DNA of 64,000 nt from Niastella vici (GTDB taxonomy: Bacteria; Bacteroidota; Bacteroidia; Chitinophagales; Chitinophagaceae), in the NCBI RefSeq assembly GCF_002077945.1, contig NZ_LVYD01000048.1, forward strand, positions 124,001 to 188,000. Direction: 5' to 3'. Made by a program: the position numbers and the translations under genes. Under the pieces are notes generated by a model. That model saw only the letters and a program-made list of their open reading frames with translations. It ran no database searches and had not been told where the DNA came from. This document shows positions 26,389 to 34,996 of this stretch, piece after piece (the stretch's first letter is position 1; every line of letters begins with the position of its first letter).

Positions 26389-27108
26389 TCATATATTATT
26401 CACCGTTGCCCCAATGATACAATCAATTACCTTCTCAGCATTGCAGCTGTTCAAACCCGCACCCCAACAGGCATTGAATTCAAGGACGAACCAACCCGTT
26501 TGTTCACTGAATGCAATATCTATAACCACTACGCGGGGCAGCTGCTCTTTATTATTGGTAATAAAGTCAGCCACAAATTTTTCTGCTTCCTGCAGATTGG
26601 CCGAGCCTTCGTAAAAAGCTATGTCGCGCACGGTGCCATCGTTACTATAACACCTTGCCTCTGCCTGTATAGTATCAATGATATTGGAAATTAAGATCTC
26701 CTCTGTTTCCGGAAGACCTTCCGTTGCCCTTTGAAAGTCGTGTAATGTTTGAAAAATACCTGCTAAAAATATTTTTGGAACAACGGGTTTAGCAAAAAGA
26801 GGGAAATGGCTATCGGTTAGTTGTCCGGCTTGTTTTAACTGAACTGTTCTCTTTGTCCATTTATGTTCAAGCCTTGCAATTAGTGTATCATCAGGCGAAA
26901 CTAACTCCACATTATAGATCTGGGCCAGTACAAAAGCAAATGCCTGGTTTCCATATATGGCAATTTTTTGCATTGCCAGGTCTTCGTCTCTAACCCAGAA
27001 CTTACCTAACCTTCTGACCCCGCCGCCATGTTTTACCCAAGCAGCGGCTACCTGATCTGATTCCGGGTCTGCTTTTTCCGGTATTAAAAGAGTGATGAAG
27101 TTATTCAT
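26389..27108 (-). CDS. ATP-grasp domain protein (DUF4343/R2K-like)
   Basis: 239 residues, soluble. The start lies at MNNFITLLIPEKADPESDQVAAAW. The middle (HFPLFAKPVVPKIFLAGIF) looks like the ATP-grasp lysine strand, and the C-terminus RVVVIDIAFSEQTGWFVLEFNACWGAGLNSCNAEK carries the Mg-binding E-x-N motif (LEFNACWG) of the DUF4343 family. ATP-grasp ligases join a carboxylate to an amine using ATP; R2K relatives are thought to modify proteins or peptides. The substrate is unknown. It is transcribed alone. Confidence 0.75.
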   Translation of the reverse strand: MNNFITLLIPEKADPESDQVAAAWVKHGGGVRRLGKFWVRDEDLAMQKIAIYGNQAFAFVLAQIYNVELVSPDDTLIARLEHKWTKRTVQLKQAGQLTDSHFPLFAKPVVPKIFLAGIFQTLHDFQRATEGLPETEEILISNIIDTIQAEARCYSNDGTVRDIAFYEGSANLQEAEKFVADFITNNKEQLPRVVVIDIAFSEQTGWFVLEFNACWGAGLNSCNAEKVIDCIIGATVNNI

Positions 27109-27463: not shown

Positions 27464-30400
27464 ATGACGCGCAGACTGCTGCTGTCGCTTGCGACCTGCC
27501 TGCCTATCTTGCATGCTATGGCGCAAGACGGACTATGGACTCCTGTTACGAAAAGCTCCTTACAAACCTATCTGAATGGCCGCTCTGCAGCTTCACCAAT
27601 GCCCACACATTATGAGCTGGTAAAGCTGAACTTCAACCTGCTGCAAACGTTGCAACAACAAGCGCCATTAATAAAGCCAGGTGAACGTTCATCCCTATCG
27701 CCTGTACGCATTTCCCTTCCCCTACCCGTTGCCGGTAAAACTTTATCGAGCGCTTTTACAGAATCGCCTGTACTTGTTGATGCGCTCACAAAACAATTAA
27801 CCGGTTTAAAAACCTACGAATTAAAAGATCCGGTTACCCTTGGTTTGCAAGGACGGTTAACCATCACAGCACAAGGTGTTACCGGTTTGATCTTTACAAC
27901 CAATGGCAGCGCATATATCAGTCCGTTGGGGGCCGATCAACCGGGCGTGCATATGGTATATTACGTAAAAGACATCCCTGTTACGGAACCTATCTTATGC
28001 GGGGCAAAAGAAGTAGTGGAAGGCGCAGCCAACCGTGTTGCGGCCGTACAGGCAAGTGATTGCAGACTGCGTAATTACAAACTGGCTGTTGCTGCTACCG
28101 GCGAATACACTTACTGGGCAGGCGGCACACAAAGCCAGGCGCTCACCTATATCGCCACGCTGGTGAACGATGTAACATCCATTTACCAACGCGATGCGGG
28201 AATCACATTTACGCTGGTAAGCAATAACAGCATTATTTTTACCGACTCACTTTCCGACCCATATCCTACTGTATCATTTCCTGATGGCACTACTTTAAGT
28301 AACAACCATAGTACACTTGTCACAAATTTGGGAAGCGGCAATTTTGATGAAGGTATTGTATTGAACTATGGTTGGAACGGCGGGCTGGCCTCTTTAGGCG
28401 CCGTTTGCAACGCTACCCGTAAAGGGCAGGCTGCCGCCGGCCTTAATTTCGGTTCAGGCAGCAACCCGACCGCAGGCCCGCAAGGTCCCGTTTTCGTAGG
28501 CACGGTGGCCCATGAAATGGGACACCAGTTCAATGCTACGCACACGATGGCTGCTACCAATGGCGCCTGCAGCGGTAATACTACTTCAGCTACGGCCTAT
28601 GAACCGGGCGGCGGTTCCACCATTATGGCTTATGCCGGCTCCTGTACCGGCAACTCTTATCAAAATAATTCAGACCTGTATTTTCATGGCGGCAGCATTT
28701 TACAGATCGCCAGTTTTTCTGTAAACTCTGCCACCTGTGTTACGCCTATCACTACGAGCAATACAGCACCCACTATAACGGTGGCGGCTACGGCCTATAC
28801 AATACCTGTATCAACGCCTTTTATGCTTTCAGCAACCGGTACAGATATGACCAATAGTACTTTGTACTATTGCTGGGAACAAATGGATGCAAACGCTACC
28901 ACCACAGCACCGCCTGCGGCAACTGCTACCAGTGGACCGAACTTTCGCTCGTACCCGCCTACCACAAGCAATACCCGGGTGTTTCCCCGCCTGGCTGATC
29001 TTGTTAGCGGCGCCACCACCACTTACGAAGTGTTGCCCAGTGTAACCCGCGCCATGAACTTTCAGGTAATGGTACGTGATGCAGCAAGTGGCGGCGGTTG
29101 TACGGCGCAAACAACCGTAACAGTGAATACCAATACTGCTGCAGGGCCTTTTAGCGTTACTTCACAAAATACAGCCACCAGCTGGACGGCCAATGGCACC
29201 AATACAGCCACAATTACCTGGAACGTGGCAAGTACCAATGTGGCGCCCGTCAACTGTTCAAATGTTGACATTATTTTATCTACCGATGGTGGCCTCACGT
29301 TCACTGATACCCTGGCAGCCAATACCGGCAATGATGGAACAGAAAACATCACCATACCCAGCCTGCCAACATCGATCGGCCGCATAATGGTAAAAGCCCG
29401 CGGCAATATCTTTTTTAATATCAATGCCGCCAATATAACTATTACGAGCAGTTGTTCTGCCAATGGCACATCCTTTACACCAACCACTGATGTTACCGGT
29501 GCTGCCGGCAGTTCGGCCCTTGATCTGAGCTTATCGCCTGTTTATGGAACGGTTGTAAGCATCAGCGGTTCCCTGGCCACCACCGACCCGGCCAGTAACC
29601 TTACTTTATTAAACACCAATACCAATTCCTGCGCAGGTTTCAGCAACGTTTACCTGTACGATGCGTACCGGTTCACCCCCAGCGTAAGTGGTACCTATAC
29701 CTTTACCCGTACCACCGGCAGTTCTTCCGATATTTTTAACCTGTATTCAGATGCATTTGTCCCCGGCAACGCCTGTAGTAATTTTATTACTTCGAGCGGC
29801 CGGTACAATGGTGCTTCTGCCTCTATTGTAAATAGCTATACGGCTACTTTAAATGCGGGCCAGTATTATACCATGACGGTTGGCTCTTTTAACAACAGTG
29901 GAAACAGCCCCATTTTCCCCGACAATTATACTATCACGGCCACCGGCCCAGGCACCCTGTATTCAAACACGCCCAATCCCGGTGCAGGATTCAGCTACAC
30001 ATACGTGATAGTTGACAATGCCACCGGCCTCATAAAAGCCATTGATGCGAGCGCCAACCTGAGCAATGCTGCCACTTACCCGGCTGGCAGCAATTATACG
30101 GTGTATGGCCTTTCCTATTCCAATGCTGTTTCTGCGGCAGCACTGAATTCATACGCGGGCACCTCCTTTACTTCATTCAAAAACGCCTTGCTGTATAATC
30201 CTGCCACACTTTGTGGAAGCGTTAGCCTGAACAATATAGATGTAGCTGTTACAGCCATATTGTTCGCACAAACAATACCGCTTAACGCCTATAAGAAAGG
30301 AAATACGGTCAATCTTAAATGGACGACCACCGCAGAACAGAACAGCAGCTATTTTGAGATCTGGCGTTCGGCAAACGGCAATGATTTTAATGAGCTTACC

Positions 30401-32925: not shown

Positions 32926-34455
32926 ATGAGATTCAATTTCAGTACTAAAGACAAAACAGCAGCAGTAAACCACGCGGGTGCTAAAGCTTATACTTTAACT
33001 CCTGAAATGGAATTATATACTGCCATTGCTACCACAATGCTTAATGATTCCTTTTATGAGAAAGCAGATGCCCGGTTAGCAAGGATAAAAAATTTGATGA
33101 CGAAGGTAAAAGCTCCTTTCATTGCCAAACTCGCAGTATATGCACGGCAGGAAATGAATTTGCGTACCGCACCAGTTGTGCTGGCCACTGAACTGGCTAA
33201 AATTCATAAAGGAGATGACCTGGTAGCAAAAATGGTTGAAAAAGTAGTAAAAAGACCCGATGAGATAACCGAAATGCTGGCCTATTATCAAATAGCCAAT
33301 GAAAGAACAGGAAATAAAAAATTGAATAAATTTTCTAAACAGCTGCAAAAGGGGTTAGCTGCCTCATTCAACAACTTTGATGAATACCAATTTGCAAAAT
33401 ATAACCGGGCCACGGAAGTAAAATTGCGTGATGCATTATTTCTTGTTCACCCAAAAGCCAGGGATGAAGCGCAGCAATTGCTTTTCAATAAGATCGTGAA
33501 CAATGAACTGGCTGTTCCCTATACATGGGAAACCGAGCTTTCTGCACTGGGACAACAAACGTTTACCTCAGCATATGCGAAGAAAAATGCGATCAAAGCA
33601 AAATGGGAAGAACTGATAAGCAGCAGGAAATTAGGGTATATGGCCCTGCTTAGAAATTTGAGAAATATCCTGGAAAGTGAAGTAAGTAAAGATCATATAA
33701 AAATAGTGTATGAATACCTTACCAACAAAACCGCGGTTGGTAATTCAAAACAACTGCCATTCAGGTTTCTGGCGGCCTATAAAGAGTTGAAAGCTGTTGA
33801 CTCAGGGTATACTTCCTATATAATGAAAGCTTTGGAAAATGCATTGGTATTAAGTGTGCAAAACATGAAAGGCTTTGACCTGGAAACAAAAGTGGTTATT
33901 GCCTGTGACGTATCCGGATCTATGCAGCAGCCGGTTTCTGCGAAAAGCAAAGTGTTGATGTATGATATTGGTTTGTTGCTTGGAATGCTGTTGCAATCGA
34001 GATGTGAAAATGTACTGACTGGTATGTTTGGTGACACCTGGAAAACAGTGCCTTTGCCTTCTACCGGAGTATTGGCTAATGTGGATGCATTCTATAAAAG
34101 GGAAGGTGAAGTTGGTTATTCAACCAATGGATATCTCGTTCTGAAAGACCTGATAGCTAAAAAATATGTGGCAGATAAGATCATGTTGTTTACCGATACC
34201 CAATTGTGGGACAGCAACACCAATAACCAGGGTGCAGAGAATACTATTAGTTATCAATGGAATGCCTATAAAAAAATAGCACCAAACGCAAAATTGTATG
34301 TCTTTGATCTGGCAGGGCATAAACATGTGCCATTAAAAGTTGAGCAAAATGGGGTTCATTTGATTGCAGGCTGGAGCGATAAAGTGTTTGAAGTGATGGA
34401 TGCAATTGAAGATGGCGCCAATGCACTTGATGCAGTTAAAAAGATAGAATTATAA
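32926..34455 (+). CDS. rsr: TROVE-domain protein, Ro60/Rsr orthologue
   Basis: 509 residues from the ATG at 32926. Residues about 15-310 form the TROVE HEAT-repeat ring (GAKAYTLTPEMELYTAIATTML; KVKAPFIAKLAVYARQEMNL; MALLRNLRNILE; LPFRFLAAYKEL), and residues 320-509 a von Willebrand A domain with MIDAS D328-V-S-G-S and MLFTDTQLWD. This is the Ro60 architecture: the ring holds the 3' ends of misfolded RNA and its rim binds Y RNAs, which gate access or tether nucleases such as PNPase. Three Y RNA-like units start 15 bp downstream, as in other bacterial Ro loci. No RtcB ligase gene lies nearby. Confidence 0.95.
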   Translation: MRFNFSTKDKTAAVNHAGAKAYTLTPEMELYTAIATTMLNDSFYEKADARLARIKNLMTKVKAPFIAKLAVYARQEMNLRTAPVVLATELAKIHKGDDLVAKMVEKVVKRPDEITEMLAYYQIANERTGNKKLNKFSKQLQKGLAASFNNFDEYQFAKYNRATEVKLRDALFLVHPKARDEAQQLLFNKIVNNELAVPYTWETELSALGQQTFTSAYAKKNAIKAKWEELISSRKLGYMALLRNLRNILESEVSKDHIKIVYEYLTNKTAVGNSKQLPFRFLAAYKELKAVDSGYTSYIMKALENALVLSVQNMKGFDLETKVVIACDVSGSMQQPVSAKSKVLMYDIGLLLGMLLQSRCENVLTGMFGDTWKTVPLPSTGVLANVDAFYKREGEVGYSTNGYLVLKDLIAKKYVADKIMLFTDTQLWDSNTNNQGAENTISYQWNAYKKIAPNAKLYVFDLAGHKHVPLKVEQNGVHLIAGWSDKVFEVMDAIEDGANALDAVKKIEL

Positions 34456-34470
34456 TAAGCTATTTGCAGA

Positions 34471-34630
34471 TAAAAACTGTAAGTGTCGTAGAGTAGAGTT
34501 ACTTCGATTATGGATCGGGATGTTGCGGGTTCGAATCCCGCTTCCGCAGCCATTCATTCACTCAATGCGGAATAGTTCAATGGAAGAACACCTAACGTAC
34601 TTTATTCGCCTTTTACCTTACAATTTTTTA
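34471..34630 (+). ncRNA. Y RNA-like tRNA-mimic RNA, copy 1
   Basis: About 160 nt. Terminal helix TAAAAACTGTAAG (34471-34483) with CTTACAATTTTTTA (34617-34630). Then a 5' hairpin GTAG-loop-TTAC flanked by the conserved GTGTC and ACTTCGATTA. Then a tRNA-like module in permuted order: T arm GCGGG-TTCGAAT-CCCGC (34525-34541), a closed acceptor-like stem TTCCGCA (34542-34548)/TGCGGAA (34566-34572), and D arm GTTC-AATGGAA-GAAC (34576-34589). GG(a)TGT and ACACC can form the junction stem. A conserved TTCGCCTTTTACC precedes the 3' strand. It begins 15 bp after the Ro60-like stop, so it is probably cut from the same transcript. Known bacterial Y RNAs (YrlA) also mimic tRNA; boundaries are estimated. 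Confidence 0.78.
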
Positions 34631-34636
34631 CCGATG

Positions 34637-34789
34637 TTAAACACAGGCAGGTGCCGTAGAAAAAAGATACTTCGACTATTAATCGGGCGGTCGCGGGTTC
34701 GAGTCCCGCTCCTATTACAACAGTAATATGATAGCTCAGTTGGTAGAGCACCACATGCTTTTTTCGCCTTTTGCCCTGCTTGTGTTTAA
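34637..34789 (+). ncRNA. Y RNA-like tRNA-mimic RNA, copy 2
   Basis: About 153 nt, the most regular of the three. TTAAACACAGGCAGG (34637-34651) pairs over 15 bp, with one G-U, with CCTGCTTGTGTTTAA (34775-34789). The 5' element reads GTGCCGTAG ... TACTTCGACTA. T arm GCGGG-TTCGAGT-CCCGC (34693-34709); acceptor-like stem TATTAC/GTAATA with a 4-nt loop (34713-34728), extended by outer pairs; D arm AGCTC-AGTTGGTA-GAGCA, which is the textbook tRNA D-arm sequence (34733-34750). TTCGCCTTTTGCC precedes the 3' strand. There is no anticodon arm in the usual place, so it is not a tRNA gene. Confidence 0.8.
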
Positions 34790-34811
34790 ATCGCTTTCAC
34801 ATTCTTTAAGA

Positions 34812-34959
34812 TAATAAACAAGTGCCGTAGAGAAGAGCTACTTCGATTAGGGATATGGGGGTGCAGGTTCAAGCCCTGCTCACGGGTACAATCCGTGATA
34901 GCGCAACCGGTAGCGCACCATACAAGAATACTCTTTTCGGGTTGTTGCCTTGTTTGTTT
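34812..34959 (+). ncRNA. Y RNA-like tRNA-mimic RNA, copy 3
   Basis: About 148 nt. Terminal helix with core AAACAAG (34816-34822)/CTTGTTT (34949-34955), extended by A-T pairs. The 5' hairpin is GTAG-AGAAGAG-CTAC, then TTCGATTA. Junction stem TATGG (34854-34858)/CCATA (34918-34922). T arm GCAGG-TTCAAGC-CCTGC (34863-34879); acceptor-like stem TCACGG/CCGTGA with a 7-nt loop (34880-34898); D arm GCGC-AACCGGTA-GCGC (34901-34916). The 3' conserved element has changed to TTTTCGGGTTGTTGCC. All stems differ in sequence from copies 1 and 2 but pair fully, which argues for function. Confidence 0.76.
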
Positions 34960-34996
34960 TCATTAACCGGAAGATGCGTATATTTAGATCTTCCTT

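Follow-up and report, generated by a model that had tools for sequence, protein, structure and literature searches.

A Ro60-type gene of Niastella vici followed by a tandem array of three YrlA-like Y RNA units

In a 64,000-nucleotide stretch of Niastella vici DNA (NCBI RefSeq assembly GCF_002077945.1, contig NZ_LVYD01000048.1, positions 124,001 to 188,000 of the forward strand; hereafter the window, numbered from its first letter), a gene for a TROVE/vWA protein of the Ro60/Rsr type precedes three tandem Y RNA units of the same strand, the first of which starts about 20 nt past the TROVE stop codon (Table 1). We consider it likely that the locus encodes one Ro60/Rsr ring protein together with three YrlA-type Y RNAs that would serve as interchangeable adaptors, tethering Ro to a tRNA-recognising enzyme. 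The initial annotation had described a Ro60-type gene and three diverged Y RNA-like genes with a tRNA-like body, and this is borne out by the Pfam TROVE match and by matches to both the Rfam YrlA model and R1, a covariance model whose training set held 32 units from other genomes and no window sequence.

Architecture of the three units

Each unit is formed by a handle and a tRNA-like head. The 5' side of the handle runs through an outer helix, a box RTGYCGTAG, an inner helix and a second box TACTTCG, and its 3' side returns through the inner helix, a TTCGCC..TTRCY box and the outer helix. The shared GTGyCGTAG..TACTTCG motif named by the initial annotation is found in all three units, and TTCGCCTTTTrCC in two of them, unit 3 carrying TTCGGGTTGTTGCC instead. 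The T-arm-like and D-arm-like hairpins are also present in 3/3 units, as is a closed acceptor-like hairpin of 6-7 pairs between them that had gone unnamed, the order in the head being T-arm, closed acceptor-like hairpin, the bases TA and D-arm. The head corresponds to a tRNA that is opened at the anticodon arm, where the handle takes over, and sealed at its acceptor end; it has neither an anticodon arm nor a free 3' CCA end. In unit 1, the acceptor loop measures 17 nt and starts with GCCA right after the acceptor 3' half. All three units are of this one insert type, a permuted tRNA.

The Rfam YrlA model aligns end to end with 3/3 units, and R1 finds in the whole window these three units only, with nothing else below E 1. 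ARAGORN calls no tRNA in the window, and the Deinococcus Y RNA model (RF01053) has no match between positions 30000 and 40000 at E values up to 5. A scan for sigma-70-like promoters or terminators around the array gave none beyond chance and lends no support. Across the 10-Mb genome, the handle pattern has three matches, all at the window array within 363 bp; the same pattern written backwards, used as a control, has 2 chance matches (forward strand), and it is therefore the clustering of the handle matches, not their count, that is telling. Once the three units are set aside, the best R1 match in this genome has 40.3 bits and falls inside a tRNA cluster; for this reason, R1 matches of other loci under about 40 bits were counted only where handle letters were visible. 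Weak Rfam YrlA-like matches elsewhere in the genome were rejected as Y RNAs, being tRNAs or tRNA-Arg-derived repeats at contig ends. These last are tandem repeats from the 5' part of a tRNA-Arg that reach both contig ends (end of contig C62 and C63:1-560; loci L009 and L011), adjoin an intact tRNA-Arg(TCT) and are probably one collapsed repeat array.

Table 1. Positions of the gene, units, arms and handle halves in the window, and of a second long head in arrays of relatives (L numbers denote loci).
Feature	Position	Strand	Description and evidence
TROVE/vWA (Ro60/Rsr-type) protein gene	32926..34455	+	509 aa, MIDAS motif DVSGSM; Pfam TROVE match
Y-RNA unit 1	34476..34625	+	handle and permuted tRNA body; R1 95.8 bits, E 2.5e-24; Rfam YrlA 37.2 bits, E 2.5e-5
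Unit 1 arms	T-arm 34525-34541; acceptor halves 34542-34548, 34566-34572; D-arm 34575-34589
Y-RNA unit 2	34644..34783	+	handle and permuted tRNA body; R1 121.7 bits, E 2.2e-31; Rfam YrlA 37.0 bits, E 2.9e-5
Unit 2 arms	T-arm 34693-34709; acceptor halves 34710-34716, 34725-34731; D-arm 34734-34749
Y-RNA unit 3	34815..34957	+	handle and permuted tRNA body; R1 94.2 bits, E 7e-24; Rfam YrlA 26.4 bits, E 0.032
Unit 3 arms	T-arm 34863-34879; acceptor halves 34880-34885, 34893-34898; D-arm 34901-34916
5' handle halves (RTGYCGT..TACTTCG box)	34483-34506 (unit 1), 34651-34674 (unit 2), 34822-34845 (unit 3)	+	pattern match; in relatives, box letters pair with the 3' half
3' handle halves	34605-34617 (unit 1, TTCGCCTTTTACC), 34763-34775 (unit 2), 34936-34949 (unit 3)	+	covariation
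Second long head in Chryseobacterium arrays	L051 8009, L058 8531, L059 8215, L064 8199, L069 8146, L081 8931, L087 9108

The TROVE protein

The 509-aa open reading frame (ORF) matches Pfam TROVE with 105.3 bits against a cut-off of 23 (E 5.5e-30). Its translation holds the MIDAS motif DVSGSM of a C-terminal vWA domain, and the residues D328-S330-S332 are invariant columns in an alignment of 12 relatives; Pfam vWA_Ro60 scores 22.1 bits, under its own cut-off of 27.7, and NCBIfam gives no match for the protein. A search with the single sequence finds only two other TROVE chains, 9l5y and 9kop. When the window protein is combined with 11 relatives into a profile of 12 sequences, two solved structures are matched, Xenopus Ro60 (1yvp) at E 2e-10 and Deinococcus Rsr (2nvo) at E 4.3e-6, and it is these two matches that make the window protein, by homology, a Ro60/Rsr-type ring protein.

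Arrays in relatives and their link to TROVE

The relatives compared are the best 80 of 156 TROVE loci from genome contigs, all of them named records and most Bacteroidota by title. A fuller parser finds 403 units in 79/80 of these loci (7 of 410 parsed units lay outside arrays and were dropped, and inserts above 200 nt were left out of the count). There are 1-11 units per locus, with five as the commonest number; an array at one Ro gene, which had seemed little described to the initial annotation, is thus nothing unusual in this phylum, and three lies under the commonest number. Some of the counts given below (swap test, box letters, 114 permuted heads, 484 inserts) come from 100 loci; these take in 20 extra loci, 4 of which repeat named ones, and include a few background matches.

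The strict 5' box is found 380 times downstream of TROVE, in 77/80 loci, against 9 times upstream and twice on the minus strand, whereas first-order Markov controls give 0.45 on average. The gene itself is patchy, since a TROVE relative is present in 21/294 genomes of the window's family. When the handle pattern alone is run over 395 phylum genomes, 57 have a match and 13, among them the window's genome, have at least two in tandem, the backward control giving scattered single matches. A test for TROVE covered 37 of these genomes. In 12/12 other tandem genomes, the gene is at most 1.8 kb away from the tandem handles and shares their strand; it occurs in 1/25 comparison genomes (12 without any match and 13 with a single match not in tandem), where it stands beside the single handle match.

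Regarding the gene neighbourhood, ORFs around the 80 loci were clustered and one representative per cluster was scanned. An RtcB cluster is found in 30/80 loci and is the first gene past the array in 19, and a WYL-domain regulator cluster lies upstream in 26/80; further clusters correspond to an RNase_T exonuclease (11 loci), SPFH (10), two RlaP clusters (6 each), an RNaseH-like protein (6) and PNKP (3). None of RNase_T, SPFH, RNaseH-like or PNKP adjoins the window locus according to a Pfam scan of its neighbours. Two of these neighbours are identified by the scan as an alpha-L-fucosidase and a Crp-type cNMP-binding protein, and one further ORF matches nothing in Pfam. An R2K-type ATP-grasp protein is encoded 6 kb upstream of the array (26389-27108, minus strand), with no apparent link to it. 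Elsewhere in the N. vici genome, contig C1 at about 149924-156040 (L012) carries RtcB, RNaseH-like and AAA ATPase genes and a cluster of 12 ARAGORN calls, one of them without a normal anticodon; RtcB lies about 4 kb from the tRNA cluster and the AAA and RNaseH-like genes adjoin it. The AAA and RNaseH-like gene types follow the array in L088 too, and L012 resembles the TROVE-array neighbourhoods of the relatives.

At least five ARAGORN tRNA calls are found in 9/80 loci. In L024, L039, L044, L075, L088 and L093, Y RNA units are interleaved with or adjoin real tRNA genes downstream of TROVE. Also, ARAGORN calls certain Y RNA units themselves tRNA-Asn, tRNA-Arg or tRNA-Lys (L037 6543-6612, L110 7988-8058, L114 8517-8588, L115 7212-7284). 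Annotation tools that take units for tRNAs in this way would leave false tRNA annotations behind, and the present Rfam cut-offs for Y RNAs miss most of the units.

Covariation of the handle and the tRNA-like body

In the swap test, the 3' strand of a unit's own helix competes with the strands of sister units in the same array. The own strand of the inner helix gave 244 wins, 8 ties and 44 losses (p 1.6e-15) and that of the outer helix 227 wins, 20 ties and 51 losses (p 9e-15); the test is restricted to 147/457 plus-strand units, those with a 3' anchor found by sequence alone, and is free of the parser's helix-score bias, yet it uses only a third of the units. The box letters point the same way, with the reservation that the 3' boxes were placed by the parser with helix scores and the counts lean to structure: in 355 units, the fourth box base (Y4) and its partner are C-G in 190, T-A in 133, T-G in 22, C-A in 3 and other in 7, and the first box base, whose pair belonged to the parser's helix score, gives G-C 244, A-T 92, G-T 12 and A-C 7.

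Moreover, in an alignment of 32 units drawn from as many loci (the window and its nearest relatives L037 and L109 excluded, and L096 left out of 33 candidates), 96.2% of cells pair and 25/31 pairs changed on both sides, a count that leans to structure because T-stem and acceptor pairing (helices 3 and 4) were selection criteria. The covariation score of this alignment is 0.748 against a shuffle mean of 0.233, and 0/500 shuffles score as high. As far as comparison of sequences can tell, the handle is a real RNA structure under selection.

The tRNA-like character of the head is kept as well. In 114 permuted heads, U8-A9 reads 'TA' in 95 and the T-loop TTCRA, these being positions of tRNA tertiary contacts. 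Between unit 1 and its counterparts in L037, L017 and L109, the acceptor stems differ and the handle is kept.

Diversity of heads under one handle

The inserts carried by the same handle in relatives comprise permuted tRNA, D-loop-opened tRNA, unpermuted tRNA, a GGGGAGGAAU module, short hairpins and rRNA-like RNA. A script sorts the 403 units into 127 permuted tRNA bodies, 92 short units, 90 with a T-arm and no recognised second arm, 53 others, 24 with a GGGAGGAA module, 10 rRNA-like, 4 D-loop-opened and 3 unpermuted, classes that are rough, a separate rule giving 11 rRNA-like heads. At least three head classes occur within one locus in 59/79 loci. The earlier suggestion that the copies could give Ro different partners or cargo draws mostly on these mixed arrays of relatives, the three window units all being of one type. 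Judged by these comparisons, the handle and the head evolve as separate modules.

Under strict rules, 484 inserts yield 86 permuted, 6 D-opened and 5 unpermuted heads, and 20 dinucleotide shuffles of the set yield none. Three of the 10 D-opened candidates from a first script (L080, L090 and L116) were rejected as spurious by eye; L090 is still among the 6 strict ones and looks spurious there too, and two of the unpermuted cases are a single locus listed twice, as L024 and L088. The D-opened heads hold a whole tRNA, save that the handle is attached at the D-loop and the anticodon loop is replaced; one such head is also found on a Rhizobium plasmid.

The rRNA-like head, of 158-171 nt, is found in 11 loci (9 Chryseobacterium, one Dysgonomonas and one metagenome bin labelled Limnohabitans), across which the unit has a mean column identity of 86%. 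It opens with TAACTATAACGGTCCTAAGGTAGCG or a close variant, a conserved segment of 23S rRNA that we take to be helices H70/H71, and in L064 the head start agrees with that genome's own 23S gene at 31/31 bases. A full 23S domain was considered and rejected, as only the first 31 nt match and the rest has no 23S match (best E 0.9). The fold of the body shows little covariation, with 7/49 pairs changed on both sides in 11 sequences, and no Rfam family was found for the head in the one locus scanned (L057). A 29-mer of the body, allowing up to 3 mismatches, is missing from all 395 phylum genomes, and the body is therefore rare. A second conserved long head without a T-arm (..AGTGCAATTTCC..GGATCAGGTGCATGTCT) is seen in Chryseobacterium arrays (Table 1).

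Units in phages, on plasmids and in other phyla

Beyond the phylum, 17 TROVE loci were searched with R1, three of which (L128, L137 and L139) gave no match and four weak scores only. The TROVE locus of Caulobacter phage CcrColossus has six R1 units (36-92 bits), Xanthomonas phage Olaya three (74-107 bits) and Brevundimonas phage Bambus three (35-86 bits), and the gut phage csAssE-Sib has one unit of 81 bits and two weak matches (29.8 and 19.1 bits) in which the handle can be seen. Also, one R1 unit is found on a Deinococcus gobiensis plasmid (86 bits), and R1 matches a Rhizobium plasmid (55 bits) and 4/5 IMG/VR contigs. On the Rhizobium plasmid, about five units can be seen by eye between TROVE and RtcB, three of which match Rfam YrlA (58.1, 49.1 and 29.7 bits). 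Six handle-like motifs seen by eye on Pseudomonas sp. Leaf58 plasmid L137, scored by neither R1 nor Rfam, were not counted, and neither were the weak R1 matches (16-26 bits, some over annotated tRNAs) of L135 (an archaeal plasmid), L129, L132 and L126. Annotated tRNA-Gln, tRNA-Tyr and tRNA-Lys genes sit inside handle units of CcrColossus (L131 2161-2228) and csAssE-Sib (L133 3657-3729 and 3802-3875), the last being a complete unpermuted tRNA-Lys with its anticodon loop within the handle. That phages share the handle suggests a use of the Ro platform by viruses as well.

Proposed role and alternatives

Each RNA, if transcribed as we expect, would be a two-part adaptor, in which a conserved two-helix handle is joined to an effector head copying the elbow and acceptor of a tRNA. 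The handle, the probable Ro-binding site, would dock on the Ro ring, and the head would be gripped by a tRNA-recognising enzyme, with PNPase as the precedent; it is by analogy with Rsr-YrlA-PNPase that the window units are proposed as tethers to an elbow-gripping enzyme. Structured or damaged RNA threaded by Ro could then be handed to the head-bound enzyme. The array would supply one Ro protein with several adaptors and, across the phylum, heads have been swapped for other tRNA topologies and rRNA-like RNA with the handle kept fixed.

Several points weigh against this proposal. Nothing in the window passes an Rfam gathering score; for YrlA, that score is 69 bits and the best window unit has 37.2, and the units are therefore filed as a YrlA variant and not as RF02553 members. 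The folding energies of units 1-3 are only mildly low (z -1.72, -2.68 and -1.48), and unit 2 has a mispaired D-arm in its minimum-energy fold. No RtcB, RlaP or WYL gene stands beside the window array in the Pfam scan of neighbours. To these are added the restricted sample of the swap test and the leaning of the parser-based and 32-unit counts noted above. That different heads have different protein partners is itself a prediction.

A broader idea, which we offer tentatively and think possible rather than likely, sees Ro as a programmable display platform, in which a fixed handle presents open-ended heads copying cellular RNAs in several topologies: tRNA joined via the anticodon arm, the D-loop or the acceptor end, and a module starting with a 23S rRNA helix sequence. 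The array would then be a library of RNA baits routing Ro to different partners in RNA processing, repair or nuclease action, with baits quickly gained and lost in the manner of a defence repertoire. Should one Ro use many interchangeable heads, each of them would be a ready-made probe for a new partner, and the array would explain the links of Ro to both tRNA repair and rRNA processing.

It is unlikely, in our judgement, that the heads are decoys or sponges, copying RNAs attacked by nucleases, toxins or modification enzymes, with Ro displaying them to divert the attacker and the array diversifying them. The mimicry of RNA bodies, including the 31-nt copy of 23S rRNA, would fit, as would the company of RtcB, RlaP, PNKP and real tRNA gene clusters in relatives the occurrence of Ro with an array in phages and the patchy distribution of the gene in the family; moreover, PMC7790460 puts forward competitive inhibition of an anticodon nuclease as a role of YrlA. 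However, the window heads have closed acceptor ends and no anticodon loop, which is where cleavage usually falls, and acceptor stems vary freely between orthologous units, therefore no specific tRNA is copied.

More doubtful still is that the three RNAs are redundant copies of a gate, in which the handle alone matters and covers the RNA-binding surface of Ro, the head acting as stabiliser and the array setting dosage. The single head type of the window and the short units of relatives, with almost no head, are in line with it. Nonetheless, the tertiary-contact positions of the tRNA body are kept, the acceptor stem stays paired through double changes, and most relatives' loci mix head classes, all of which goes against a passive head.

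We give next to no credence to a reading of the units as permuted tRNA genes that yield working tRNAs once the transcripts are processed, despite the order of T-arm, acceptor and D-arm and the GCCA of unit 1, as there is no anticodon arm, the handle is present on both flanks and NCCA past the acceptor is found in only 5/114 permuted heads, little above chance, so that GCCA was rejected as a general tRNA 3' end trait. Equally remote is a decayed tRNA cluster or chance repeats, for which the tRNA-like pieces and the other tRNA-derived repeats of the genome could be invoked, against the covariation, the fixed place behind TROVE and the strand bias.

Comparison with known systems

Y RNAs beside Ro genes, their tRNA-like domain and the presence of more than one Y RNA per species are already known, and likely Y RNAs near Ro60 were reportedly described by Chen et al. 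in 2014 for more than 250 bacterial and phage species. The recruits of bacterial Y RNAs are known for very few species. A search of titles and abstracts in the open literature showed nothing on long Y RNA arrays, other tRNA topologies or rRNA-like heads, the main bacterial Y RNA papers lying outside this search, so that novelty is provisional; modular heads are probably, but not certainly, undescribed.

The closest known RNA is YrlA (RF02553; Salmonella and others), which like the window units lies beside a Ro/Rsr gene and has the order basal stem, T-arm, closed acceptor hairpin and D-arm. It differs in that the Rfam consensus reads AAUGCuuggGgaaCUA where the window handle has RTGYCGTAG..TACTTCG, and in that the window has three tandem copies that score below Rfam gathering. 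According to PMC8394870 and PMC7790460, the basal stem of YrlA binds Rsr and its tRNA-like domain binds PNPase, the complex degrading structured RNA, and YrlA is a substrate of tRNA-modifying enzymes; the former source also describes YrlA as an RNA that is made, binds Rsr, carries D and pseudouridine and tethers PNPase.

In the case of the Deinococcus Y RNA (RF01053), one GGGGAGGAAU-type unit, from the relative L108 (Chryseolinea), covers the full length of the model with 34.2 bits (E 3.3e-4 in a 741-base search), whereas the window has no match. L108 is the only one to match among 8 such units of the scanned loci, and the module was thus not taken as generally Deinococcus-like, the match being a hint only. 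The rsr-yrlBA-rtcBA RNA-repair operon with RYPER (Rsr, Y RNA, PNPase) has a Ro-type gene and adjacent Y RNAs in common with the window, and the arrays of relatives adjoin RtcB; in the window's genome, however, RtcB is not adjacent, a full-length copy lying on another contig (C1) near the tRNA cluster. Finally, jumbo-phage TROVE loci carry handle-type units too, and a phage TROVE with a tRNA-like partner is described in PMC7824862. Unlike those of the window, the phage units lie upstream of TROVE in L130, L131, L133 and L134, and their box letters read GTGGCG or GTGGTG.

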